DNA of 64,000 nucleotides from Bacteroidia bacterium. Its GTDB lineage: Bacteria; Bacteroidota; Bacteroidia; J057. Positions 12,659 through 64,000 of this stretch are shown here, piece by piece. The notes below the pieces were generated by a model. The model made no database searches. It saw nothing but the letters and a program-made list of their open reading frames with translations, and was not told the origin of the DNA. Every line of letters starts with the position of its first letter. Position 1 is the stretch's first letter. The translations under genes were made by a program, and so were the position numbers. The DNA lies in contig JAUIGE010000008.1 of assembly GCA_030430205.1 (NCBI GenBank), positions 62,001 to 126,000 on the forward strand. The letters run 5' to 3'.

Positions 12659-13294
12659 TTATTTGGCAGCCTCCATTTCCTTTTTCAAAAAAGAAATATC
12701 TTCTTTCAATTGATCCAGGTCCTCCTGCTTCGTTCCAAAATAATAGCCCCTAAAGTGAAAGCTGCCATCAAGCAGGACAAAGCGTTGGTCATGATATATC
12801 CCTCCGGGTGCCAGACTATCTTCATAAGCGGAAAGGCGAAAGCCGTTTTGGATCAAATCATACATTTTTTCCTTTTCGCCTGTCAACAACATCCAACGGT
12901 CTGTATCTATTTCATATTTCTCTACATAAGCCCTGAGTACCTCAGGCGTATCATAAGACGGGTCCACGGAAAAGGACAAAATTTGAACTTTGTCATCTTT
13001 TAGGAAAGCTTCCTGAATCTGGGTCATATGACTGGTAAGTGTAGGACAAATACCAGGACAGGAGGTAAAGACAAAATCGGCGACAATCACCTTGCCTTTG
13101 ATATCTTCTTTCCCAATAGAATCTCCATTCTGATTCACCAGCCTAAAGTCAGGCAATACCTCATAATCACCCGGCAAATTGCTCTGTATCTCTCCCTCCA
13201 CAATCGGGTAATAATAAGGCAATCGCTTCTCATTAGGCTCACAGGCACTAACCCCAATAGCGACCAACACAATTATTATCAAGTACTTTCTCAT
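12659..13294 (-). CDS. SCO1/SenC family copper chaperone (lipoprotein)
   Basis: The 211-aa protein carries a lipoprotein signal (MRKYLIIIVLVAIGVSAC) and a thioredoxin-like SCO domain. The copper ligands are present: CxxxC in TSCPGICPTL and the downstream His in YHDQRFVLLD. SCO proteins load the CuA site of cytochrome oxidase subunit II, matching the location in the ctaCD cluster. The start codon lies inside an 8-bp repeat array that also contains the stop codon of the upstream gene. Confidence 0.93.
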   Translation of the reverse strand: MRKYLIIIVLVAIGVSACEPNEKRLPYYYPIVEGEIQSNLPGDYEVLPDFRLVNQNGDSIGKEDIKGKVIVADFVFTSCPGICPTLTSHMTQIQEAFLKDDKVQILSFSVDPSYDTPEVLRAYVEKYEIDTDRWMLLTGEKEKMYDLIQNGFRLSAYEDSLAPGGIYHDQRFVLLDGSFHFRGYYFGTKQEDLDQLKEDISFLKKEMEAAK

Positions 13295-13342
13295 CTGCTC
13301 ATCTGCTCATCTGCTAATCTACTCATCTACTAATCTACTCAT
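13290..13342 (-). repeat. 8-bp tandem repeat (CTCATCTG family), 6.6 units bridging two genes
   Basis: Six full octamers plus five bases (CTCATCTG three times, then CTAATCTA/CTCATCTA alternating) make up the whole spacer between the two SCO-like genes. On the coding strand this reads ATGAGTAG/ATTAGCAG/ATGAGCAG. The array contains the TGA stop of the upstream gene (13339-13341) and the ATG of the downstream gene (13292-13294). Confidence 0.9.
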
Positions 13343-14031
13343 TTCCCAAAATCTTCTTTATACTCCAATGTCAACAGTGCTCTCAAGTCTTCGAATAACT
13401 GTTTTTCAATAGAAAAATCATTGGTTCCTTCGTAATACTTCCGCACTTTCCCTTCTTTATCCACCAGGGCAATAGCCCTTGCTGTAAAAGGCCCACGGCT
13501 ACGTGTCTTATCCATAAACTCCTTCAGAGAGAAAGTGTTGAGGCCCAGGGTCCAGACAGTTTCTAATGGCCCTCGGGCAAAGATCCATTTGCTTTCATCG
13601 CCCCCATAGCGATCGGACCAGGACTTTAATACAGAAAGCGAGTCGGTTTCAGGTGAAGTGCTGATTGTTAAAATTTTAACCATAGGGGCCCTCTCAGCAT
13701 TGTCGTATACCTTTTTAAGGTTAGGCATCAGCAAATAATTGAATCGGGCAGCTTTATCTGAGACATGAGCGTCTTCAGCCCCATCAAAAAAGCTAATGAG
13801 GTATACATCGCCAAGCATATCCGATTTTCCAAAGTTCTTGCCATTTTGATCTTGTAGACGAAACTCAGGCAACTCATGGAAAATAGTATCGCCGTTTGCA
13901 TCAAGGCTATATTGATAGGGCAGACGTTCAAAATGAGCCGTTGAGCTGTATTTCACAAAGAAGTACAGAAAAAGAGGAAAGGCGATGACCACTAAAAGGA
14001 TCACCGCCTGTATTTTATTTCGTTTCATCAA
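13339..14031 (-). CDS. SCO/redoxin-like protein lacking the copper-binding cysteines
   Basis: The 230-aa protein has one N-terminal transmembrane anchor (IQAVILLVVIAFPLFLYFFV) and aligns by eye with the neighbouring SCO protein: shared LPYxYxxxxxGxxxxxxLPEFRLxxQNG, then DxxxSxLKxWxDxYGxDxxxWxF. Where SCO has CxxxC this protein has FFDGAEDAHVSD, and the distal His is replaced in TARAIALVD. It therefore cannot bind copper in the SCO way. It is common as a SCO partner in Bacteroidota oxidase clusters; its function is unknown. Confidence 0.75.
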   Translation of the reverse strand: MMKRNKIQAVILLVVIAFPLFLYFFVKYSSTAHFERLPYQYSLDANGDTIFHELPEFRLQDQNGKNFGKSDMLGDVYLISFFDGAEDAHVSDKAARFNYLLMPNLKKVYDNAERAPMVKILTISTSPETDSLSVLKSWSDRYGGDESKWIFARGPLETVWTLGLNTFSLKEFMDKTRSRGPFTARAIALVDKEGKVRKYYEGTNDFSIEKQLFEDLRALLTLEYKEDFGK

Positions 14032-30183: not shown

Positions 30184-31239
30184 ATGTCTGAAAAAAAATC
30201 ATACCAACTTATTATTATAGGTGCAGGGCCTATTGGTCTTGCATGTGGCATTGAAGCTGAAAAGCAAAATGTGGATTACCTGATTCTGGAGAAGGGATGT
30301 CTGGTAAACTCTATTTATCATTATCCCGTAAACATGCAGTTTTTTTCCACATCTGAAAAAATTGAGATTGGAAATGTGCCTTTTGTATCTCACGATACCA
30401 AACCCACAAGGCGCGAAGCCCTGGAATACTACCGCAGAGTAAAGCTGCAGTGGGGGCTGAAAGTGAATATGTATGAGGGAGTGGAGAGGATTGAGAGGAT
30501 GAGAGGATTAGCAGATGAGCAGATTACAACTGGAACCCGAAACCCAAAACCCGAAACACGAAATTCCAAACCCGAAACTTTCACAGTAGTGAGTGAGAAG
30601 GCGGTTTACACTGCCGGTTATGTGATTGTGGCTACGGGTTTTTATGACCATGCCAATATGCTGGATGTGCCGGGAGAGCATTTACCTAAAGTGAAGCACT
30701 TTTATGACGAGCCTCACCCCTATCTGGACCAAAAGGTATTGGTGGTAGGAGCTGCCAACTCGGCTATAGATGTGGCTTTGGAGACCTGGAGGAAAGGCTC
30801 CGAGGTGACATTGGTACACAGGGGGCCGGAAATAGGTTCCCGGGTAAAGTACTGGGTGAGACCTGATATTGAAAATCGAATCAAGGAAGGAAGTATTAAA
30901 GTCTATTTTAATAGCCAACTGGCCGAGATCAGGCAAAAGGAAGTGGATATACAAACGCCTGAAGGGCTGGTCTCAATAGAAAACGATTTTGTGCTGGCTA
31001 TGACCGGCTATCACCCTGACTTCAGCTGGCTGGAGCAGATCGGCATTCAGGTATCCGATGATCCGCTTCGTATCCCCTTTCGCAATCCCGACACATTTGA
31101 GACCAATGTCCCTAACTTATACCTCGCAGGCACGGTCTGCGGTGGCATGCAAACCAATAAATGGTTTATTGAGAATTCCATTGAGCATGCGGTAGTGATT
31201 TTGGAGGATATTAAAAAAAATAGCTTTACTAAACTTTGA
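30184..31239 (+). CDS. ypdA: YpdA family bacillithiol-disulfide-reductase-like flavoprotein with repeat-derived internal insertion
   Basis: The 351-aa protein has an FAD motif (IIIGAGPIGLACGIEAEK), the YpdA-typical YHYPVNMQFFSTSEKIEIGNVPF region, an NADPH Rossmann motif (VLVVGAANSAIDVALE) and the C-terminal LYLAGTVCGGMQTNKWFIEN. YpdA reduces bacillithiol disulfide, or acts on a related low-molecular-weight thiol in these bacteria. Residues about 101-131 are encoded by an 8-bp array (30485-30524) followed by a 7-bp array (30534-30575) and read ...TRNPKPETRNSKPET..., replacing the short beta-turn loop before FTVVSEKAVY. The stop codon sits at the apex of a long terminator hairpin. Confidence 0.88.
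   Translation: MSEKKSYQLIIIGAGPIGLACGIEAEKQNVDYLILEKGCLVNSIYHYPVNMQFFSTSEKIEIGNVPFVSHDTKPTRREALEYYRRVKLQWGLKVNMYEGVERIERMRGLADEQITTGTRNPKPETRNSKPETFTVVSEKAVYTAGYVIVATGFYDHANMLDVPGEHLPKVKHFYDEPHPYLDQKVLVVGAANSAIDVALETWRKGSEVTLVHRGPEIGSRVKYWVRPDIENRIKEGSIKVYFNSQLAEIRQKEVDIQTPEGLVSIENDFVLAMTGYHPDFSWLEQIGIQVSDDPLRIPFRNPDTFETNVPNLYLAGTVCGGMQTNKWFIENSIEHAVVILEDIKKNSFTKL
30485..30575 (+). repeat. Composite repeat inside a coding sequence: 8-bp array then 7-bp array
   Basis: Five octamers (AGAGGATT, GAGAGGAT twice, TAGCAGAT, GAGCAGAT; 30485-30524) are followed after 9 nt by six heptamers (AACCCGA, AACCCAA, AACCCGA, AACACGA, AATTCCA, AACCCGA; 30534-30575). All of it is translated within the YpdA-like protein. 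The order octamer then heptamer is the same as at trpF/trpB. Confidence 0.85.
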
Positions 31240-35492: not shown

Positions 35493-35510
35493 ACCTATCA
35501 AGCTCTGCGC

Positions 35511-35587
35511 CCGAAACCCGAAACCCGAAACCCGAAACCCAAAACCCGAAACCCGAAACCCGAAACCCGAAACCCAAAACCCAAAAC
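35511..35587 (+). repeat. 7-bp tandem repeat CCGAAAC, 11 units
   Basis: Eleven consecutive heptamers CCGAAAC/CCAAAAC start 18 nt after the SRAP-like stop codon. It is the same unit as at 30534, 56373 and 57076, here in pure form and noncoding. Confidence 0.95.
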
Positions 35588-35670: not shown

Positions 35671-35689
35671 TTTGGGGAGAGGGGAGAGC

Positions 35690-35801
35690 AGAGAACAGAG
35701 AGTAGAGAACAGAGAGTAGAGAACAGAGAGTAGAGAACAGAGAATAGAGAACAGAGAGTAGAGAACAGAGAGTAGAGAGTAGAGAACAGAGAGTAGAGAC
35801 G
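35690..35801. repeat. 7-bp tandem repeat AGAGAAC/AGAGAGT, 16 units, alternating
   Basis: Sixteen heptamers run head to tail, mostly strictly alternating AGAGAAC and AGAGAGT, so there is a 14-bp higher-order period. The array ends 4 nt before the TAA stop of the DUF1684 gene on the opposite strand. Confidence 0.95.
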
Positions 35802-50078: not shown

Positions 50079-50232
50079 GTCATTTCGACGAGGCTTTGCG
50101 AGGAGAAATCTCCTGAACTCATTCATTAAAAGCTTGATTATCAATGACTCAGGAGATTTCTCCTCGAAGACTCCCTTCGACAAGCTCAGGGCAGGCTCCT
50201 TCGACAAGCTCAGGGCAGGCTGTCGAAATGAA
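50079..50232. repeat. Composite intergenic repeat (TCATTTCGAC type) with nested inverted repeats
   Basis: The outer arms TCATTTCGAC and GTCGAAATGA bound the element. Perfect 17-bp inner arms lie at 50100-50116 and 50149-50165 (GAGGAGAAATCTCCTGA and its complement). Two tandem 24-bp copies containing CTTCGACAAGCTCAGGGC lie at 50174-50197 and 50198-50221. Such GTCATTTCGA elements are common between genes in Bacteroidota. Confidence 0.8.
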
Positions 50233-54414: not shown

Positions 54415-55188
54415 TTAACCCTTTAACGATTTCACAAATCCCAATATATCCCCCTCCAAATCCAAACTTCCTTCCAGCATTTTCACAAATGCGCTCCCAA
54501 TAATGGCTCCCCGCGCATAAGCGCTCGCCTGGCGGAAACTTTCCGCATCCTTTATCCCAAACCCGATCAATCGGGGATTCTCCAGCGCCATGGCATTCAC
54601 CCGCTCAAAATAAGCGAGCTGCTTAGCAGAAAGGCCGCTTGTCTTGCCGGTAGTACTACTACTGGAAACCATGTAGATAAAGCCCTCGCTGAGCGCGTCT
54701 ATCTTACGGATGCGGTTTTCGGCAGTCGTCGGACTGATGAGAAAAATGTTGCTGAGGCCATTTTTTTGAAATGCCTGTTGGTAGTTTTTTTCATATTCAG
54801 AGATAGGCAAATCAGGCAAAATAAGGCCATCAATGCCTGTTTCGGCACATTTTTCCAAAAAATTGTCCATACCAAATTGCATCACGGGATTGAGGTATCC
54901 CATGAGAAGGATTGGAATGCCCGTGTCCTCCCGCAAGCCTTCCAACTGCTCAAAGAGCAGCTTAAGGCTCATCCCATTGTCAAGCGCCAGCTTGCTGCTG
55001 TGCTGGATCGTCGGCCCATCGGCGATGGGATCAGAAAAGGGAATCCCGATTTCAATCATATCCACTCCAGCCCTATCCAGGCTGCGGATGATCCTGCGAG
55101 TATCCTCCAGCCGGGGAAATCCGGCCGTGAAAAATATATTGAGGATGGGGCGATCCGTTTGTTGAAAACAACTTTTGATTCTATTCAT
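54415..55188 (-). CDS. trpA: Tryptophan synthase alpha chain
   Basis: From the ATG at 55188 the protein is 257 aa, standard for TrpA. Conserved segments are ILNIFFTAGFPRLEDT, MIEIGIPFSDPIADGPTIQ with the catalytic acidic residues, GLILPDLPISEYE, and FIYMVSSSSTTGKTS. It releases indole from indole-3-glycerol phosphate and channels it to TrpB. Its start overlaps the trpB stop by 8 nt. It is the last gene of the trp operon. Confidence 0.96.
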   Translation of the reverse strand: MNRIKSCFQQTDRPILNIFFTAGFPRLEDTRRIIRSLDRAGVDMIEIGIPFSDPIADGPTIQHSSKLALDNGMSLKLLFEQLEGLREDTGIPILLMGYLNPVMQFGMDNFLEKCAETGIDGLILPDLPISEYEKNYQQAFQKNGLSNIFLISPTTAENRIRKIDALSEGFIYMVSSSSTTGKTSGLSAKQLAYFERVNAMALENPRLIGFGIKDAESFRQASAYARGAIIGSAFVKMLEGSLDLEGDILGFVKSLKG

Positions 55189-56461
55189 TTCGCTTCTTTT
55201 TCCATTCAATGTAGGTCTGCAAATCTTTGTCGCCTCTGCCAGAGAGATTGACGACCACCACATCACTGGCTTGAAAATCAAGCTGATCCAGAGCCGCCAG
55301 GGCATGCGCCGATTCTATGGCGGGAATGATTCCCTCCATCTCTGCGAGCAGGAAGCCTGCTTCAATGGACTCCGCGTCGGTGGCACTGAGGAAAATCGCA
55401 CGCCCCTTCTCTTTGAGATGGGCATAGATTGGGCCTATGCCCGGATAGTCCAGACCCGCCGAGATAGAATGCGGCTCAATCACCTGTCCATCAGCCGTCT
55501 GCATCAGCAAGGTTTTGCTGCCGTGCAGGATCCCCACCTTTCCCAGAAAGGTAGTTGCAGCGGATTTATCCGTGTGGACGCCATGTCCGGCGGCTTCTAC
55601 CGCCACCAGTTTCACTTCCTCTTCATCGAGATAATGGTAAAATGCCCCTGCTGCATTGCTGCCACCACCTACGCAGGCCAGGATATAATCCGGATTTTCG
55701 CGGCCCGTTTGGGCTTTGAGTTGCCAGCGCATCTCCTCGCTGATGACCGACTGAAAACGGGCGACCATATCCGGATAGGGATGCGGCCCGACCACCGAAC
55801 CGATGATGTAGTGGGTGTCCGTTGGATGGTTTATCCAATGACGCATGGCTTCGTTGGTGGCGTCTTTGAGGGTGCGGCTGCCCGTCAGGGCGGGGATGAC
55901 CTGGGCACCGAGCATGAGCATGCGCTCTACATTGGGGCGCTGCCGGGCGATGTCAACTTCGCCCATGTAGACGATGCATTCCATGCCCATCAGGGCACAA
56001 ACCGTAGCCGTGGCTACTCCATGCTGCCCAGCGCCGGTTTCGGCGATGATTTTCTGCTTGCCGAGGCGCTTTGCCAGCAGGATCTGGCCCAGGGTATTGT
56101 TCACTTTGTGAGCGCCGGTATGGTTGAGGTCTTCCCGCTTGAGGAAAATATTTGTCTGGTATTTTTCAGAAAGCCTTTTGGCAAAGTAAAGCGGCGAAGG
56201 CCGCCCGACATAATCCTTCAGCAATTGCTGAAACTCCTGCTGAAAAGAGGGCTCCGCCATGATCCCGAGATAGCGCTGCCGCAGTTCTTCTACATTGGGA
56301 TACAGCATTTCCGGGATAAATGCGCCTCCGAAATTCCCATAGTAACCGTTTTCGTCCACCTGGAAGGGGGAAGGGTTTTGGGTTTTGGGTTTCGGGTTTT
56401 GGGTTTCGGGTTTTGAGTTTTGGGTTTCGGGTTTCATCTGCTCATTTGCTAATTTACTCAT
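55181..56461 (-). CDS. trpB: Tryptophan synthase beta chain with repeat-derived N-terminal extension
   Basis: The 426-aa protein is an intact TrpB, with the PLP Lys in DLNHTGAHKVNNTLGQ, the phosphate loop CVGGGSNAAG and the C-terminal VVVNLSGRGDKD. Typical Bacteroidota TrpB begins at about VDENGYYGNFGGAFIPEM. Here about 30 extra residues precede it, encoded by an 8-bp array and a 7-bp array (KPETQNSKPETQNPKPKTQ). The ATG (56459-56461) overlaps the trpF stop as ATGA, both being part of the 8-bp repeat. A second in-frame ATG is present within the array. Confidence 0.95.
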   Translation of the reverse strand: MSKLANEQMKPETQNSKPETQNPKPKTQNPSPFQVDENGYYGNFGGAFIPEMLYPNVEELRQRYLGIMAEPSFQQEFQQLLKDYVGRPSPLYFAKRLSEKYQTNIFLKREDLNHTGAHKVNNTLGQILLAKRLGKQKIIAETGAGQHGVATATVCALMGMECIVYMGEVDIARQRPNVERMLMLGAQVIPALTGSRTLKDATNEAMRHWINHPTDTHYIIGSVVGPHPYPDMVARFQSVISEEMRWQLKAQTGRENPDYILACVGGGSNAAGAFYHYLDEEEVKLVAVEAAGHGVHTDKSAATTFLGKVGILHGSKTLLMQTADGQVIEPHSISAGLDYPGIGPIYAHLKEKGRAIFLSATDAESIEAGFLLAEMEGIIPAIESAHALAALDQLDFQASDVVVVNLSGRGDKDLQTYIEWKKKRNE

Positions 56462-56475
56462 CTGCTAATCTGTTC
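56373..56475 (-). repeat. Composite repeat at the trpF-trpB junction: 8-bp array then 7-bp array
   Basis: On the plus strand nine heptamers GGGTTTT/GGGTTTC (56373-56435) are followed by five octamers (ATCTGCTC, ATTTGCTA, ATTTACTC, ATCTGCTA, ATCTGTTC; 56436-56475). In the direction of trp transcription the octamers come first and give the trpF stop and trpB start; the heptamers then encode the TrpB N-terminus. Confidence 0.95.
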
Positions 56476-57069
56476 AATCTGCTCAATCCTCTTCCTCCCC
56501 GGCTCGCTTTCAAAGCGGCTGTTGATATCCACAGCAAAAAGCTGAGGATGAGCGAATTGCATCGCTTTATCTATATTGTCGGGGCCGATGCCTCCGCTGA
56601 GGAAGAATGGCACTTTCAATCTGTATTTGTCTAAAATGGACCAATCAAAGCCATACCCATTTCCGCCAGGCAGTTCGCCTTGGGTGTCAAACAGAAAGTA
56701 GTCAACTCTATCCTGATAAGGGATCAGTTTGTCAAAATCAAAGGCTGAATTCACAGCAAAGACTTTAATCAGAGACAAGCCTTTTTCATGAAGGCTTTGG
56801 CAAAAAGCTGGCGATTCCTGACCATGCAACTGGATCAAATCCAGCCCATAGTCTTCCGCAGTTTGCAGAATCACAGCCTCAGTAGCATTGACAAAAACGC
56901 CTACCTTTTTACTTCCACCCAGTCCTTTCACCCAATCAGGCTGGAGCAGATGCCCAACAAAGCGAGAGGATGGGGGGTAAAAAATAAGGCCAATAAAGTC
57001 TGGTTTTGTGCCCAAAACCTCCCGAATATTCGCAGGAAATTTCAGGCCACAAATTTTTAAGAGTGGCAT
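56458..57069 (-). CDS. trpF: Phosphoribosylanthranilate isomerase
   Basis: From the ATG at 57069 the protein is 203 aa. It has KICGLKFPANIREV with the catalytic Cys, FIGLIFYPPSSRFVG, LIQLHGQESPAFCQ, FLFDTQGELPGGNGYGFDW with the catalytic Asp, and FFLSGGIGPDNI. It converts phosphoribosylanthranilate to CdRP. An in-frame extension to 57126 is made entirely of 7-bp repeat (residues like RNPKPET) and is optional. The final residues IEQIEQISR come from octamer-like sequence. Confidence 0.94.
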   Translation of the reverse strand: MPLLKICGLKFPANIREVLGTKPDFIGLIFYPPSSRFVGHLLQPDWVKGLGGSKKVGVFVNATEAVILQTAEDYGLDLIQLHGQESPAFCQSLHEKGLSLIKVFAVNSAFDFDKLIPYQDRVDYFLFDTQGELPGGNGYGFDWSILDKYRLKVPFFLSGGIGPDNIDKAMQFAHPQLFAVDINSRFESEPGRKRIEQIEQISR

Positions 57070-57075
57070 AAAGAT

Positions 57076-57124
57076 GGGTTTTGGGTTCCTCGTTTCGGGT
57101 TTCGGGTTTCGGGTTTCGGGTTGC
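57076..57124 (-). repeat. 7-bp tandem repeat GGGTTTC, 7 units, between trpC and trpF
   Basis: Seven heptamers (GGGTTTT, GGGTTCC, TCGTTTC, GGGTTTC three times, GGGTTGC) fill most of the trpC-trpF gap, ending 6 nt before the trpF ATG. They are open in the trpF frame. Confidence 0.9.
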
Positions 57125-57153
57125 AAGCTGAAATCAGAAACCAGGAACTACAA

Positions 57154-57942
57154 TTAAAGTTTTTGGATAAACTCAGCGCAAGCCCGAGACGGATCGGCTT
57201 CTCTCATGAAGTGCTCACCGATGAGGAATCCCTGGAAGCCCGCTTCCCTCAGCTGCCGAACGGTGTTCGGCTCTTTGATGCCGCTTTCAGCGACTTTCAC
57301 ATAGCGATCAGGAATTTTTTCGACCAGCGAAAAGGAGGTTTCCAGATTTACCTGAAAATTGTTCAGGTTACGGTTGTTGACGCCGATCATTTTGACATGC
57401 GGGTCAAAACGAAGGCTTTCTTCCAATTCCTTTTCGTTGTGGATTTCCAGCAGCACTTCCATCCCCAGTGACTCAGCGATGCTGCTGAAGCGCATGACTT
57501 CCCAGGGTGCAAGCACCGCTGCGATCAGCAGAATGGCATCCGCTCCCATGGCCTTTGCTTCGGCAATCTGGTACTCATCTACGATGAAGTCTTTCCGCAA
57601 AATGGGCAATTCAAGCTTTTCCCTTACCTCAACAAGGTCTTCCCCACCGCCGCCAAAGTAAGGCCCATCCGTCAGTACGGAAATGCCCGCCACGCCAGCC
57701 TGGGCGTAACCCTGGGCTACTTCAACGACATCCAGCCCGGGGTGTATTTCCCCTTTGGAAGGAGAACGGCGTTTTATTTCGGCGATGATGCCGTTGCTAC
57801 CCTCGGCTTTGAGAGATTTTGCAAGTGAAAAACACCGACGTTTAAAAAAAACACCTTCTTCCAGGTCAGCAATGCGCAGCTGAGCTCTGTTTGCCTCCAC
57901 TTCGTGGATTTTTTGGACGATGATCTTGTCGAGAATACTCAT
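57154..57942 (-). CDS. trpC: Indole-3-glycerol-phosphate synthase
   Basis: The 262-aa protein has the family motifs GIIAEIKRRSPSKGEIHPG with the catalytic Lys, AGISVLTDGPYFGG, LPILRKDFIVDEYQI, ADAILLIAAVL, MIGVNNRNLNNFQVNL and VAESGIKEPNTVRQL. It closes the indole ring from CdRP. It is a stand-alone TrpC, not fused to TrpF. It lies 28 nt downstream of trpD. Confidence 0.96.
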   Translation of the reverse strand: MSILDKIIVQKIHEVEANRAQLRIADLEEGVFFKRRCFSLAKSLKAEGSNGIIAEIKRRSPSKGEIHPGLDVVEVAQGYAQAGVAGISVLTDGPYFGGGGEDLVEVREKLELPILRKDFIVDEYQIAEAKAMGADAILLIAAVLAPWEVMRFSSIAESLGMEVLLEIHNEKELEESLRFDPHVKMIGVNNRNLNNFQVNLETSFSLVEKIPDRYVKVAESGIKEPNTVRQLREAGFQGFLIGEHFMREADPSRACAEFIQKL

Positions 57943-57970
57943 GGGATATATGCTTTTTCAAAGAACAAAC

Positions 57971-58978
57971 TTAAGAAAAAACTGCTTGTGAGGCAGCAAC
58001 TAACTTTTCAAATGCCTGCAAGGCTTTTCCACTTTTGAGGGAAGTCCGGGCGATGTTGACCGCTTCTTCCAATGAATAAGCTGGTTTTGCCAGGTGAATG
58101 GCCAATGCAGCATTGGCAAAAACAACCGACTCCTGTGCTTTAGAGCCTTTTCCCTGCAAGACTTGCATGAAAATTTGGGCAGCTTCCTTAACGGTTTTTC
58201 CCCCTGCCAACTCTTCTTCTTTCACCTTCTCCAATCCAAAATTTCCGGCATGCAAAATGGCCTCTCCACGCGAAGAAGCCACTTTTGCGCCGTCTGTCAG
58301 GGTGATTTCATCATAGCCATCCAGGGCATGAAGGATACAAAAGCGGGTGGCACTTTTCTGGTAAATGTATTGGTAGAGTCGTAGCAACTCAAGGCTGAAG
58401 ACGCCCACCAATTGCTTTTTGGGAAAAGCCGGATTGACCATGGGACCCAGCATATTGAAGAAGGTCTTCATGCCTAATTCACGGCGGATCGGTCCAACAT
58501 TTTTCATAGCTGGATGAAATAGCGGTGCATGCAAAAAGCAAATATGGGCCTGCTCCATTTGCCGCCGAAGCATCTTCGGATCACTGGTAAAGCGGTAGCC
58601 CAGCTGCTCCATGACATTGGAGCTGCCGGAGATGGATGACACGCCATAATTGCCGTGCTTGACCACAGGGATGCCTGCTCCGGCCACCACAAAGGTCGTT
58701 AGGGTCGAAATATTGAAGGTGTCCTTCCCATCGCCACCTGTACCGCAAAGATCCATCGGATCAAAATCTGCCATGTCCACCCGCAAACACAGGTCTAGCA
58801 TAGCATCGCGAAAACCCTCCAACTCTGGTACGGTGATCGTGCGCATATTGTAAATGGTCAAAAATGAGGCAACCTGGCTGAGGTTGTATTTGCCCTGTGC
58901 AATGTCCTTCAGCACCTCTTTTGCTTCCGCTTTGCTCAGCGAATTGTGGTTATATAGATGATTGAGTATCGCTTTCAT
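57971..58978 (-). CDS. trpD: Anthranilate phosphoribosyltransferase
   Basis: From the ATG at 58978 the protein is 335 aa. The PRPP site is DLCGTGGDGKDTFNIS; other conserved parts are VVKHGNYGVSSISGSSNVMEQLG, PIRRELGMKTFFNMLGPMVNPA and the DGYDEITLTD segment. It joins anthranilate to PRPP. The reading frame overlaps the trpG end by 29 nt. A start at 58987 three codons upstream (MENMKAIL) is also possible. Confidence 0.95.
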   Translation of the reverse strand: MKAILNHLYNHNSLSKAEAKEVLKDIAQGKYNLSQVASFLTIYNMRTITVPELEGFRDAMLDLCLRVDMADFDPMDLCGTGGDGKDTFNISTLTTFVVAGAGIPVVKHGNYGVSSISGSSNVMEQLGYRFTSDPKMLRRQMEQAHICFLHAPLFHPAMKNVGPIRRELGMKTFFNMLGPMVNPAFPKKQLVGVFSLELLRLYQYIYQKSATRFCILHALDGYDEITLTDGAKVASSRGEAILHAGNFGLEKVKEEELAGGKTVKEAAQIFMQVLQGKGSKAQESVVFANAALAIHLAKPAYSLEEAVNIARTSLKSGKALQAFEKLVAASQAVFS

Positions 58979-59555
58979 GTTTTCCATTTTGAATCCAATT
59001 GTAAATGATGCGTTTTCCGTGAGGTGTGAGGATAGACTCCGGGTGAAATTGCAGCCCGGCCACGTCATATTCAACATGGCGGATCGCCATCGGCTCCCCC
59101 TCTTTGTCTCTGGCTGTAATGCTAAGTGTTTTGCCGACACTGGTCGGTTCTATGGCCCAGGAGTGATAGCGACCAACGACGATTTCAGCCTCCAGCCCGC
59201 GGAAAAGCGGCTCCTTTTTGCTTTCCAAATGGATCAGCGTAGCGATGCCGTGGAGGACAGTTTCGCGGTTGTAGAGCTTCGCTCCGAAGCATTCGCCTAT
59301 GGCCTGGTGTCCCAGGCAGATGCCCAAAATGCTCTTGTGGGGCGCGTAGCGCTCAATCAAGGCGGGCATGATGCCCGCCTCGGAAGGAAGACCGGGCCCC
59401 GGCGAGAGCAGGATTTTGTCGTATTTTTCCACCTCCGACAAGTCGATTTTGTCATTTCGAATAACATCCGTTTGCTTCCTCAGGCCGAGTTCCTCCAGGA
59501 TATGGACCAGGTTGTAGGTAAAGGAATCGTAATTATCTAAAACAAGGATTTTCAT
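58950..59555 (-). CDS. trpG: Anthranilate synthase component II (glutamine amidotransferase)
   Basis: From the ATG at 59555 the protein is 201 aa. It starts MKILVLDNYDSFTYNLVHIL and has LLSPGPGLPSEAG, ILGICLGHQAIGECFG with the catalytic Cys, and the C-terminal His-Glu pair in GLQFHPESILTPHG. It supplies ammonia to TrpE. The gap to trpE is 13 nt. A longer open frame overlapping trpE is not used. Confidence 0.96.
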   Translation of the reverse strand: MKILVLDNYDSFTYNLVHILEELGLRKQTDVIRNDKIDLSEVEKYDKILLSPGPGLPSEAGIMPALIERYAPHKSILGICLGHQAIGECFGAKLYNRETVLHGIATLIHLESKKEPLFRGLEAEIVVGRYHSWAIEPTSVGKTLSITARDKEGEPMAIRHVEYDVAGLQFHPESILTPHGKRIIYNWIQNGKHESDTQSSI

Positions 59556-59568
59556 TGTTCTGTCTGCA

Positions 59569-61032
59569 TTAATGGGTTGGGCTATGATGAAGAATGGGTT
59601 GTTCTTGTTGCTCCCGCGTATGTGCGATGGCAGAACGCAGGGCAGCGAGTTTGTTTTCGACTTCCTGAAGCTCGCTTTCAGCAACCGATTTGGCCACAAC
59701 GCCAGCACCTGCCTGGTAATAGAGTTGGTTGTTTTTGCTCAAAAAAGAACGAATAATAATGGCATGATTGAAGCTTTCATCAAAGCCGATAACACCTATA
59801 CATCCGCCATAGAAACCGCGATTCTGCTTTTCGTAACGGTTGATCAGCTGCAGGGCCCGGTGCTTGGGAGCGCCGCTCAGCGTACCTGCCGGAAAGGTAT
59901 CGGCAACCAGTTTGAGTGCAAAAACCCCCTCTGCGATTTGTGCAGTCACTTTGGATACCAGATGTATGACATGGGAGTAAAACTGAATTTCCTTAAAAGT
60001 ATCCACTTTGACTCCCTTGCCGTTGCGGCTGAGGTCATTGCGGGCGAGGTCTACGAGCATGACATGCTCGGAGCTCTCTTTGGGATCATTCGAAAGTTTT
60101 TCGGCCTGAATCCGGTCTTCCGCGTCATCTCCCGTACGGAGAAAGGTACCCGCAATCGGGTGGATGGTCGCCTCGCCCTCCTTGATCACCAGTTGGGCTT
60201 CGGGTGAGGACCCAAAGAGCTTGAAGTCGCCGTAATCGGCGAAAAAGAGGTAAGGAGAAGGATTTACGGAGCGTAAGCTTCTGTAGACCTGAAACTCATC
60301 GCCCTGAAAGGGCTGGCGGTATTGGCGGGAGAGGACGATCTGAAAAACGTCTCCGAGCTGGCAGTGATTTTGGCCTTTCCGCAAAATTTCCAAAAATGCT
60401 TCATCCGTCAAATTGGAACTTTCTTCTCCCACAGTAGCAAAAGGAAAGTCCGGCACATTGCGGTTCATGATCAGTTGCTCAATTTTTCCAAGAGAAATTT
60501 CGGCATCTTCCTGTGGTTCACCTTCCTTCTGAAAATAATGTTCAAAAAGGTAGAGTTCGTTTTTGAAATGGTCTATGACCACGACATATCGAAAAATCTG
60601 GTAGAGCATTTCCGGAATTTTTTGGTCTTCGTCCTCATAGGTTTGAATCGCTACATCCTCATAGTAGCGCACAGCATCATAGCTATGGTATCCAAAAAGG
60701 CCATTATACATAAAAGGCAAAGGCAGTTCATCTACCTTGAAGGAGCGCACAAATTCGCGCAGCATAAAGGTGGCATTGACTTCGGCATCGAGTTTCATCT
60801 CGATTTTGTTGCCGTCAGGAAAGCTCATCTTTGCCAGCCCCTGATGTAGCTCAAAGCGTGCTACCGGATCAAAGCAGATGTAGGAAAAACTGTTTTCATG
60901 TCCATGATAATCAGAGCTTTCCAGCATGAAAGTATTGGCATAATGGTCGCGCAATTTCAGGTAAATGCTTACCGGGCTCAGGGTATCAGCGAGTCTTTTT
61001 CGGTATCTGGTTGTCAGTTTATAAAAAAGCAT
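59569..61032 (-). CDS. trpE: Anthranilate synthase component I
   Basis: The 487-aa protein has the N-terminal feedback site (MLESSDYHGHENSFSYICFDP) where tryptophan binds, and the chorismate-binding catalytic domain with HPIAGTFLRTGDDAEDR, EHVMLVDLARNDLSRNGKG, FPAGTLSGAPKHRALQLI and FYGGCIGVIGFD. It makes anthranilate from chorismate using ammonia from TrpG. It is the first structural gene of the operon. The leader upstream carries a Trp-rich peptide and a terminator. Confidence 0.96.
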   Translation of the reverse strand: MLFYKLTTRYRKRLADTLSPVSIYLKLRDHYANTFMLESSDYHGHENSFSYICFDPVARFELHQGLAKMSFPDGNKIEMKLDAEVNATFMLREFVRSFKVDELPLPFMYNGLFGYHSYDAVRYYEDVAIQTYEDEDQKIPEMLYQIFRYVVVIDHFKNELYLFEHYFQKEGEPQEDAEISLGKIEQLIMNRNVPDFPFATVGEESSNLTDEAFLEILRKGQNHCQLGDVFQIVLSRQYRQPFQGDEFQVYRSLRSVNPSPYLFFADYGDFKLFGSSPEAQLVIKEGEATIHPIAGTFLRTGDDAEDRIQAEKLSNDPKESSEHVMLVDLARNDLSRNGKGVKVDTFKEIQFYSHVIHLVSKVTAQIAEGVFALKLVADTFPAGTLSGAPKHRALQLINRYEKQNRGFYGGCIGVIGFDESFNHAIIIRSFLSKNNQLYYQAGAGVVAKSVAESELQEVENKLAALRSAIAHTREQQEQPILHHSPTH

Positions 61033-61060
61033 GAGGAAAGAATTGAGGATGAATAGGGGG

Positions 61061-61101
61061 TAAAAAGAAAACGGCCCGTGATCTGTAAATCACGAGCCGT
61101 T
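61061..61101 (-). terminator. Intrinsic terminator in the trp leader (attenuator)
   Basis: On the minus strand 13-nt arms at 61101-61089 and 61082-61070 (AACGGC..GTGAT type, one mismatch) form a stable hairpin with a 6-nt loop, followed by TTTTCTTTTT. It lies 28 nt before trpE and 27 nt after the leader-peptide stop, the standard layout for attenuation. Confidence 0.85.
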
Positions 61102-61128
61102 GTTGAAATAATTTTTTATATGAATTAT

Positions 61129-61212
61129 CTACAAAATACGCCTATGACCCACAAGAGGAATACTTGTGTGCCACCACCAATTGAAAGACATATTTTGAGA
61201 AAAAGTGTTCAT
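61129..61212 (-). CDS. trpL: trp operon leader peptide with three consecutive Trp codons
   Basis: A 27-residue frame runs from ATG (61210-61212) to TAG (61129-61131) and contains SFNWWWHTS, with TGG-TGG-TGG at 61171-61179. CACAAG and CTTGTG directly after the Trp codons can pair as a pause or 1:2 stem. Shortage of charged tRNA-Trp would stall the ribosome on the three Trp codons and change folding of the downstream terminator. The promoter TTTG - 20 nt - TACTCTTG is 20 nt upstream. The mechanism is inferred from layout. Confidence 0.85.
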   Translation of the reverse strand: MNTFSQNMSFNWWWHTSIPLVGHRRIL

Positions 61213-61231
61213 TTGATTTTGAATTCTTGAA

Positions 61232-61263
61232 CAAGAGTAAGTCGATTTTGACAATTTTGCAAA
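61232..61263 (-). promoter_or_regulatory. Predicted trp operon promoter
   Basis: On the minus strand TTTG (61263-61260), a 20-nt spacer and TACTCTTG (61239-61232, one mismatch to TAnnTTTG) form a Bacteroidota-type promoter just before trpL. Confidence 0.5.
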
Positions 61264-61345
61264 AAAAATAGACAATGTTTTTTTAAAAAACTCCCAGACT
61301 CCCTTATTGGCGAGGTGCCTTTTCGGGGTCTGGGGTAACAACACT

Positions 61346-64000
61346 CTACTTAATCAAACTTATTTTACCATCAAATTGTAAACCATCTATATTGATCCGG
61401 TACAGGTATATCCCTCCTGCCTGATCTCCCAAATCTACGATTTGCCTGATGATTCCGGATTGAGAAGCAGCAAAATGTTCACTTCGTATCAATCGACCAT
61501 CCATGCCAAAGATTTGGATACTTCCTTGGGCAGCTTTTTCCATTCTCAGCTTAAAATGAAACGCATTCTTGCTGGGATTGGGGAAGACTGCCAGTAAATT
61601 GTGCTGTGTTGGTGGGGCAAAGAAAACTTCTTCTACAGATGAGTATCGGACTTGTCCATTTGCATCTATCATTGAGAGCCGATACAGGTTTTTACCATCT
61701 TTGGGAGCCGTATCCAAAAATTCATACGATTGAATTTCACTGGAGGTTCCCATTGCCGGAACTCTCTCTAACTCAACAAATTCCGTACCATCAGTCATTC
61801 TTTCGACAGCAAAAAACTCAGAGCTTCCCGATTCTTTTGCCAGCCAGTTTACCAGAACATTTTGTTCTTGTTTTTTTGCTTCAAAATGCAGCAATTCGAT
61901 CGGCAAAGGCTGAATAAACACCCGGGCAGAGTCCTTTAAAATACATTCTCCATTATCCACTGTCAATACAAACCAGCTATCAAAAGGGGGAGAAGCCTTG
62001 GGGTCTTCCAGGCTATTGTTATTGAGGTATGCTGAATTAGACCAACTATACTGAATCGAAGAAGATGGCGGGGTAAAACGATAGGCATCCGGCGAACTGG
62101 ATGAAACCACCCAACTTTGGGCATTTCTCCCTGTTACCGGCATCCCGTTTTGCCCATTGGGGCTTTCGATCCCCTGCGTTGCCAGGTCTCCGCTGCCATC
62201 TACTCTTTGGTTATGAATTTCGATTATGTTGCTTCCTTCGTATAGCACAATTTGTACATAAACCCTGTCACTTCCGCCGATCAATCTGTAAAAAACCAGG
62301 TCCTCATATTTCACCACAAATCTTCTGTTGGGAGCTGTTCCAAGACGTTGGTAGCTGATCCGGGGATTATAGGAACTCGCAGTACGCTGCTTCAGATTTT
62401 CCCAAACTGCTGCTATCATCCCATCTGGTGTGGTAGCAGAAGGAATGGAGCTGCTGCTATTATTACCGCTTGTTGCACTAAAGGAAATAAAGCCATCTTC
62501 TGCCACCCGAACACTGTTAAAGGTGTTACAATAATATTCGAAGTCAAAGCCCAAAGAAATAGGACTGCTAATATCATTTGTGGCTATGCTCAAACTTGTA
62601 CCTGTTCCCGATTGCCAACTGTAAGGAATGGCAGTACGGGTATATGCGTTGCAATCTACCACTGGCGGAGGCCCAACATAGGTACCATCCAGGATGGCTG
62701 TATCTCCATAATTAATGTAGTGGTCTGGCCCGGCATCTACATAGGCGACATTTACACTTAATGGGGTGGTAGTCACGCAATTGCCGGAAGTATCAGAAAC
62801 AATTGCATGATAGGTGGTATTTGCAGAAGGGGTAACAGATAATATATCTCCAGAGCCAATATTTGTCCCAAGCGGTGACTGCCAATTCACGGCATAGCTT
62901 CCTGGCGTAGCTGCTAAAGAGAAGCGATAGGCATCGTTAATGCTATTCCAGGTGCTGGCGTTGCGCCCGGCTACAGTGAGTCCCCGGATCCCTGTTCCAT
63001 CTTCTATACCCTGGGTCATGGTGCCAGAAACCCCATGATTATCTACCCGGGTATTGTGAAACTCAATGGCATTGGTGCCCTCCTCCAGGATGATCTGCAT
63101 GCTGACAAGACAGAAGCTACAACTATAATGAGGTACATTGGCAAGTTTGAGAACAAACCTCCGGTTGGGTGCAGAGCCCATGGTGAAGTATTCCATGGTA
63201 CCGCCGGAGGCGGGATCGAGGTCATCCCAGGCAAATGCAATGATTGCATTGGGGCTATTTGCATTGGGAATACTTGATGTAACATATTGAGGGTCAGAAG
63301 CAGACAAGCTAGAGAAGGTCAACCAGCCATTGGAAGAAACATATAATGATGTGTATGAGCTACAATAAAAATCAAAAGAAAAACCGATGGGGAGTGCGTT
63401 ACTTACGCTTTCATCTCCCAGGCTGAGCCTGGTTCCACTCCCGCTTGCCGGCCGGTATGGAATACTCTGAACTGAGTAACCCGTACAGGAGGCGCCAGCA
63501 ACATTGGCAAAAAGACTTACTGGTTGGCCCGCACAATACTGAGAAGCAGAACTGCTTGGCACAGCCACCAATTCATTTTGAGAAACATTGACGTCTATGG
63601 AGTCAATTGTAACACAACCCGTTGCCGGATCTGTGACTTCAACTTTGTAAACGGTGCTTACTGAGGGGCTCGCCGTTGGGAAAGGCGTGATGGTCGAGTT
63701 AAGGCTCGATGCAGGTGACCAATGGTATGAATACGCTCCAGCAGGGCTGGCAATAGCACTGAGTGGCACAGAAGCACCTTCGCATACACCCGTATCTGCT
63801 GACATCGCCAGGCTAAAGCCTGGGATCAAACTGACTTGAATCGTATCTATCGGATTGCAGGGAAGGTTTCCAGTGACCTCATAAGTCGTGCTGACACTGG
63901 GATTCGCCATAGGCGAGGAGCAATTGGTACAACTCAGGCTGCCCATATCACCGCTGATGACGCGCCATGTATGGACCGTACCTCCACTCACTTGCAGTTG
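61346..64000 (-). CDS. T9SS-exported multidomain surface protein (N-terminus beyond window)
   Basis: The frame is open from the window edge to a TAA at 61346, at least 885 codons. It contains Ig/PKD-like modules (VSTTYEVTG, VYKVEVTDPATGC, TTYHAIVSDTSGNC) and two copies of a ~150-residue beta-sandwich module: YSVQSIPYRPASGSGTRLSLGD...FYCSSY, and YTRTAIPYSWQSGTGTSL...EYYCNTF. A Por secretion tail closes it (LLAVFPNPSKNAFHFKL, then IQIFGMDGRLIRSEHF and GGIYLYRINIDG). It is exported by the T9SS. The function may be adhesion or a structural role. Confidence 0.9.
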   Translation of the reverse strand, partial: QLQVSGGTVHTWRVISGDMGSLSCTNCSSPMANPSVSTTYEVTGNLPCNPIDTIQVSLIPGFSLAMSADTGVCEGASVPLSAIASPAGAYSYHWSPASSLNSTITPFPTASPSVSTVYKVEVTDPATGCVTIDSIDVNVSQNELVAVPSSSASQYCAGQPVSLFANVAGASCTGYSVQSIPYRPASGSGTRLSLGDESVSNALPIGFSFDFYCSSYTSLYVSSNGWLTFSSLSASDPQYVTSSIPNANSPNAIIAFAWDDLDPASGGTMEYFTMGSAPNRRFVLKLANVPHYSCSFCLVSMQIILEEGTNAIEFHNTRVDNHGVSGTMTQGIEDGTGIRGLTVAGRNASTWNSINDAYRFSLAATPGSYAVNWQSPLGTNIGSGDILSVTPSANTTYHAIVSDTSGNCVTTTPLSVNVAYVDAGPDHYINYGDTAILDGTYVGPPPVVDCNAYTRTAIPYSWQSGTGTSLSIATNDISSPISLGFDFEYYCNTFNSVRVAEDGFISFSATSGNNSSSSIPSATTPDGMIAAVWENLKQRTASSYNPRISYQRLGTAPNRRFVVKYEDLVFYRLIGGSDRVYVQIVLYEGSNIIEIHNQRVDGSGDLATQGIESPNGQNGMPVTGRNAQSWVVSSSSPDAYRFTPPSSSIQYSWSNSAYLNNNSLEDPKASPPFDSWFVLTVDNGECILKDSARVFIQPLPIELLHFEAKKQEQNVLVNWLAKESGSSEFFAVERMTDGTEFVELERVPAMGTSSEIQSYEFLDTAPKDGKNLYRLSMIDANGQVRYSSVEEVFFAPPTQHNLLAVFPNPSKNAFHFKLRMEKAAQGSIQIFGMDGRLIRSEHFAASQSGIIRQIVDLGDQAGGIYLYRINIDGLQFDGKISLIK

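Follow-up and report, generated by a model that had tools for sequence, protein, structure and literature searches.

The tryptophan synthase subunit TrpB encoded in a 64,000-nucleotide stretch of Bacteroidia DNA (the window) probably carries, judging from its gene sequence, a repeat-encoded N-terminal extension of about 30 residues that occurs in none of the relatives compared. The favoured reading, with a probability of about 0.68, is that TrpB starts at the first in-frame ATG (M1) and that the translated repeats are a by-product extension, resulting from the genome-wide growth of two repeat families. This in-frame use in trpB is the most interesting feature of the arrays described here.

The host genome is a draft assembly of 7.24 Mb in 80 contigs. 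The window contains the genes in the order trpC-trpF-trpB-trpA on the minus strand, and Pfam domains were found for all four. The same gene order is present in all five family loci compared (L120-L124). The features of the operon are as follows.

54415-55188, minus strand: trpA, Pfam Trp_syntA, with its start taken from the present gene prediction
55181-56461, minus strand: trpB ORF, Pfam PALP, 426 residues from M1, of which the first 32 lie before the orthologue anchor F33
56458-57069, minus strand: trpF, likely starting at ATG 57067-57069, downstream of the heptamer array that precedes this gene
57076-57122, minus strand: heptamer array between trpC and trpF, detected by TRF, with AAACCC on the sense strand
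57154-57942, minus strand: trpC, Pfam IGPS

Read from M1, TrpB scores 578.2 bits against NCBIfam TIGR00263 (cut-off 392.45) and 659 against the model of the bifunctional TrpF-TrpB, NF010376, which is below the cut-off of 819. It is the single TrpB of the genome at E 1e-120. The array preceding trpF is a second heptamer array of the operon and an addition to the original prediction, which concerned the trpF-trpB junction; the likely trpF start has a context score of 6.44 bits. At that junction, the repeats in TrpB sit between an ATGA overlap and the conserved core.

56458-56461, minus strand: ATGA, in which the trpB ATG (56459-56461) overlaps the trpF TGA (56458-56460)
56434-56485, minus strand: octamer array of the GCAGATGA type, within which lie the stop of trpF and the two ATGs in the trpB frame
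56443-56445, minus strand: ATG in another frame, translating as M-S-R-stop, context score 4.32 bits
56435-56437, minus strand: second in-frame ATG (M9), context score 2.61 bits
56373-56435, minus strand: nine heptamers, on the coding strand (G/A)AAACCC and one AAAACTC, 63 nt encoding 21 residues of the KPETQN type
56363-56365, minus strand: anchor F33
56357-56359, minus strand: GTG (V35), with a context score of -1.56 bits; no other start codon lies between the array and the core

Among the peptides predicted from the sequence that would span TrpB residues upstream of V35 is TQNPSPFQVDENGYYGNF. TRF reports the heptamer array at 56373-56434, with 8.9 copies and a score of 96, and the octamer array with 6.4 copies; with 73% matches and a score of 53 the latter is called degenerate. 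Coordinates, TRF and frame analysis agree with the original prediction that the trpF stop and the trpB start overlap inside an 8-bp array, that nine in-frame heptamers encode about 21 TrpB residues, and that two ATGs are in the TrpB frame and a third in another. They also bear out its claim that the number of heptamers is critical for the frame: no other-frame ATG leads into the heptamer array, so that TrpB would lose every ATG start if the unit number changed by anything other than a multiple of three. The dimer pattern GGGTTTYGGGTTTY, allowing at most one mismatch, matches 24 times in the window, against 0.18 expected, and 8 of these matches lie in the trpB array; none of 100 shuffles reached 24.

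The coding properties of the two repeats are distinctive. AAACCCG and AAACCCA are stop-free in all three sense frames and specify a cyclic heptapeptide that is the same in each of them, KPETRNP and KPKTQNP, respectively. An ORF can therefore cross any number of heptamers with the same peptide. The GCAGATGA octamer reads ADEQMSR-stop in every frame, and thus supplies an ATG and a stop in each.

TrpB was compared with 85 orthologous loci, comprising 80 named loci and the five family loci; 83 are distinct, there being two pairs with identical cores. The anchor has its nearest ATG 2-9 codons upstream in all 85, compared with 24 or 32 codons here. AAACCC is absent from the 150 nt upstream in all 85 loci, and none shares the repeat extension, which had been expected to be unique among relatives. 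Further in-frame ATGs are located upstream in 9 of the 85, 23 codons before the anchor in L011 and, in the other eight, in a frame that is open back through trpF; none of these is repeat-made. The closest named orthologues are 79-80% identical. The anchor position is occupied by an aromatic residue in 81 of the 85 loci, and F-Q-V, just after the repeats, agrees with the family TrpBs L120, L121 and L123, as expected if the codons following the repeats are still translated. A junction array is present in none of the five family loci, which include the genus mate G001. The latter has the same ATGA overlap, array-free and followed directly by TYQVDTQG, so that the overlap is independent of the array. 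Of the earlier proposal that the array tunes trpF-trpB coupling, coupling through ATGA is plausible, whereas a need for the array is contradicted by G001. An AlphaFold model of TrpB, for which 21 of the 24 TrpB rows supplied were used as aligned rows, has a pLDDT under 50 for residues 1-55, including some of the core, and is weak and uninformative on the extension. In eight named loci, mostly of flavobacteria (L013, L042, L052, L057, L067, L074, L080 and L088), the TrpB frame is open, stop-free, back through trpF; these may be fused trpF-trpB ORFs.

Start-context scores and the dominance of ATG among predicted starts favour translation from M1, which is considered likely. In a matrix built from 684 predicted ATG genes, with trpB left out, M1 scores 6.48 bits, the 66th percentile of these starts, where the medians are 5.0 bits for the 684 starts and -4.4 bits for 5,908 internal ATGs; among 926 predicted gene starts 879 are ATG, 22 GTG and 25 TTG, and both the matrix and these counts rest on the present gene calls, whose caller gives ATG a bonus. 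The calls came from our own codon-usage script and were verified by inspection and, for 19 proteins, by Pfam, which gave no match for two of them. Against M1, the starts at most array-gene junctions lie 3' of the array, the other-frame ATG leading to M-S-R-stop also has a good context, and nine orthologous loci have further in-frame ATGs upstream.

The heptamer arrays are not confined to the trp operon. A four-unit heptamer pattern with two mismatches gives 589 forward and 587 reverse matches in the genome, counted in overlapping registers, but its backward control is itself high (157 and 140); the exact four-unit pattern gives 196 and 190 matches, against 23 and 7 for the backward control. 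The 7-bp unit with its G3 run thus recurs in many arrays on both strands. By taxonomic rank, the exact pattern is present in 2 of 2 genomes at the genus level, 2 of 13 at the family level, 2 of 22 at the order level and 5 of 395 in a sample of the class. The family and order genomes concerned are those of the genus only, and the three class genomes outside the genus have only 3, 5 and 8 matches.

Most arrays are located between genes. In a first sample of 464 kb, 46 of 56 period-7 arrays are intergenic, versus about 10% for random stretches, and in 1.264 Mb 41 of 49 AAACCCR arrays of at least four units lie between predicted genes. The 49 comprise 27 in the sense and 1 in the antisense orientation between co-directional genes, 7 between divergent and 6 between convergent genes, and 8 inside genes, such that AAACCC is on the sense strand in 27 of 28 co-directional gaps (p 2.2e-7). 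Of the 56 arrays in a set of 40 further stretches picked for their arrays, 26 lie between co-directional genes, 20 of them with AAACCC sense and 6 with it antisense (p 0.009); 10 are in divergent and 13 in convergent gaps, 6 are inside genes and one is at an edge. Of 41 arrays, 24 have a gene at most 20 nt from the 3' end of their AAACCC strand and 11 have one at most 20 nt from its 5' end; the values for the picked set are 30 and 14 of 49. A polar rule, by which the AAACCC 3' end is nearest to the gene, was considered and holds only partially, in 27 of 41 arrays (p 0.06) and in 32 of 47 untied cases of the picked set (p 0.019); of the 20 sense co-directional arrays in the latter, only 8 follow it. 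In G001, with a gene prediction trained on C107 alone, 11 picked stretches contain 13 arrays, of which 7 end close before a predicted start, 5 touch the stop codon of a gene running the opposite way and one does neither. The genes bordering the arrays are of many kinds, including enzymes, a sigma factor and a histidine kinase, and no restriction to contingency-type genes (surface, restriction) was seen.

Repeats are also read in frame within other proteins. The closest parallel to TrpB is a ferrochelatase (L233:1965-3095, C40) with the heptamer-encoded N-terminus MDLKPETRNPKPETRNP; the one family relative found begins with MKQAVLIVNLG and is devoid of the extension. Here, too, GTG and TTG codons occur just 3' of the array. 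In the window itself, one enzyme ORF contains a composite of both repeats.

30484-30578, plus strand: octamer and heptamer composite in a Pyr_redox_3 enzyme ORF (30184-31239), encoding a 23-residue in-frame insertion

This insertion is found in none of nine family relatives. A histidine kinase ORF (L239:945-3740, minus strand) has a heptamer array inside its HATPase domain (KTQNPKPKTQNPKPETQN). Within the present genome, in-frame arrays are observed in or beside domains of the histidine kinase, a pseudouridine synthase and a PP2C protein, and at the C-termini of HlyD, ECF sigma and ApbE proteins.

The octamer family gave 35 pattern matches genome-wide, from which 30 loci were read, representing 26 distinct places. 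At seven of these, trpB included, an array ATG opens an ORF of at least 200 residues. A further octamer array in the window is shared by two genes.

13291-13346, minus strand: octamer array containing both the stop codon of one gene and the ATG at which the following gene, SCO1/SenC, starts

The clearest octamer start is that of an LpxK ORF (L265:450-1508, minus strand), in which the first residues, MSRL..., are octamer-encoded and the Pfam match begins at residue 2. Candidate octamer-encoded starts are also observed in a threonine dehydratase ORF (L264:235-1524, minus strand; MSRLADEQM...) and in an ABC ATPase (MRRLANEQIM...). In these two a second in-frame ATG follows soon after the octamer ATG, and either may be the start.

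The following mechanism can be proposed for the origin of the extension. Two repeat families would expand genome-wide, mainly filling intergenic space, with heptamers lengthening ORFs and octamers beginning or ending them; both would have done so at trpF-trpB. At trpB, repeat growth would have passed the start codon into unconstrained N-terminal codons. It would be tolerated there because the heptamers are stop-free in any sense frame, and would be kept because the total length is in frame, which would be the sole demand made on the repeats at this junction. TrpB would then start at ATG 56459-56461 and the repeats that follow would be translated, giving about 30 residues (MSKLANEQMKPETQNSKPETQNPKPKTQNPSP), presumably with no particular function of the tail. 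Such a general expansion fits the data better than a device of the trp operon, because the arrays number in the hundreds, are mostly intergenic and adjoin genes of many kinds. A trp-specific role of the array was likewise considered and set aside, as the arrays are genome-wide.

Several other explanations were weighed, the confidences in which are not mutually exclusive. TrpB might be translated from GTG 56357-56359, leaving the repeats as an untranslated leader. As this codon stands 13 nt 3' of the array, where starts sit at most other junctions, such a start is possible but unlikely. A same-strand gene lies within 200 nt of 38 of the 49 arrays, of which 33 are upstream of the gene and 5 inside it, and 22 of these 33 end at most 30 nt from the predicted start of the downstream gene. 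The pyrimidine stretch after the trpB array resembles those before many starts, and TrpB from the GTG, with 578.7 bits on TIGR00263 and a match from its residue 5, still covers the model from its first position. However, the GTG has a poor context, at the 13th percentile among predicted starts, its codon is rare among these starts, and ATG is the predicted start of 31 of the 33 genes that follow an array; for C14:209647, one of the two non-ATG cases, re-reading by eye gives an in-frame ATG 5 nt after the array. A GTG start would moreover drop the mostly aromatic anchor, which an ATG shortly precedes in every orthologous locus. The GTG start was an early idea derived from the spacing between arrays and starts, and was weakened by the context scores and by the overlap in G001. 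Arrays acting in RNA or DNA, as a translation leader or a template-strand G-quadruplex, would be compatible with their translation, and the strand bias between co-directional genes (27 sense versus 1 antisense) is consistent with such a regulatory role. The G-strand of the heptamer has, as a motif only, the form G3N4. According to Rehm et al. 2015 (PMC4692102), Xanthomonas and Nostoc carry G-rich heptamers that form G4 in vitro and lie, mostly on the non-coding strand, no more than 50 bp before ORFs. This role is nevertheless distinctly doubtful: the RNA of the trpB junction shows structure no greater than that of shuffles (z 0.16), no Rfam match was obtained at gathering scores within positions 55000-62000 of the window, and the genus mate has no array at this junction. 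In addition, arrays also adjoin the stops of opposing genes, which a translation leader leaves unexplained.

The original prediction had envisaged that a change in heptamer number could switch tryptophan synthase on and off or tune coupling. As a contingency locus, slipped-strand changes in heptamer number would toggle TrpB and produce Trp+ and Trp- cells. If an ATG start is used, the length of the array does set the reading frame, and there is a precedent in hmw1A of Haemophilus influenzae, described as phase-variable with heptanucleotide repeats (PMC8262952). The arrays, however, occur by the hundreds in the gaps of many kinds of genes, which leaves the switch, and likewise a tuning role, unsupported. 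The mixed units AAACCCG, AAACCCA and AAACTCA should reduce slippage, and the published dispersed heptamers occupy sites that are more conserved than those of controls, although their lengths differ between species (PMC4692102). A contingency locus is therefore very improbable. The same low credence is given to a wider proposal, in which octamer arrays, with a start and stop in every frame, and stop-free heptamer arrays would together be a genome-wide source of new gene borders and frame-neutral tails, and the heptamer number at trpB and hemH would in addition be a live, reversible switch between Trp+ and Trp- and between haem+ and haem- states. An assembly artefact is hardly credible. Draft assemblies, here of 80 contigs, can miscount short repeats, but the frame is open through the junction, the units differ, many separate arrays have a like make-up, and 63 nt should be below the usual sequencing read length.

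The arrays can be compared with known repeat systems. Rehm et al. 2015 (PMC4692102) describe G-rich heptamers dispersed in Xanthomonas (unit GGGAATC) and Nostoc (unit GGGGAYT), and consider phase variation unlikely, because surface and adaptation genes are not the only ones to have these repeats. Common to those heptamers and the present arrays are G-rich 7-bp units in many copies on both strands, mostly intergenic, with the G-strand mostly non-coding and within 50 bp upstream of ORFs, an occurrence as single arrays or inverted pairs, and no tie to surface genes. In contrast, the unit here is GGGTTTY, in a Bacteroidota genus, with several further repeat families mixed in, and a search of PMC4692102 for GGGTTT gave no match. 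A further difference is that the present repeats also stand in frame inside enzymes, as insertions by comparison with relatives. G4 was shown in vitro for the Xanthomonas and Nostoc repeats, whereas here it is known as a motif alone, and positional conservation fails here at the trpF-trpB junction. On most of the features tested, the present arrays thus belong with these dispersed G-rich heptamers, as a new unit in another phylum. AAACCCR arrays are unnamed in the titles and abstract openings of the repeat literature searched. MacGregor 2015 (PMC4679880) reports TAACTGA heptamer repeats in Beggiatoaceae, Cyanobacteria and some Bacteroidetes, and discusses a TAACTGA repeating peptide and the possible tolerance of repeats at protein ends. 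Those repeats share with the present ones heptamer direct repetition, mostly in one orientation and just upstream of start codons, but unlike AAACCCR they contain stops in the forward orientation, so that no read-through occurs. TAACTGA is absent among the period 6-9 units listed for the genome samples (at most 30 per sample).

The repeats described here provide a clean case in which a repeat whose unit length is not a multiple of three stands in frame in proteins. One dispersed repeat places the same heptapeptide, terminally or in loops, in unrelated enzyme ORFs, those of tryptophan synthase, a reductase, ferrochelatase and a histidine kinase. Oligomer repeats were reportedly regarded by Ohno as robust coding material, all frames reading alike, and the recurrence of one heptapeptide across unrelated ORFs makes this idea testable in a living genome. 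For annotation the arrays are a warning that gene starts and ends in this genome can be repeat-made and that repeat length affects the frame. The hmw1A gene of Haemophilus influenzae encodes a surface adhesin with known variants. It has in common with trpB tandem 7-bp units on the 5' side of the gene, the number of which could matter; unlike hmw1A, trpB is the gene of a biosynthetic enzyme.

Some further repeat arrangements were observed. Opposed pairs of heptamer arrays separated by a short spacer are found at C20:48489-48618, C20:126541-126653, C20:184554-184717 and C23:155674-155830; they are of the AAACCCG and AAAATGG/AATGGAT families, have roughly opposite orientation and could make long imperfect hairpins. 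In the window, a second heptamer family, GAGAGTA/GAGAACA with a 14-bp period, is located at 35684-35799 and shares its gap with an AAACCCG array at 35510-35587, and a perfect 24-bp tandem duplication lies between predicted genes at 50174-50221.
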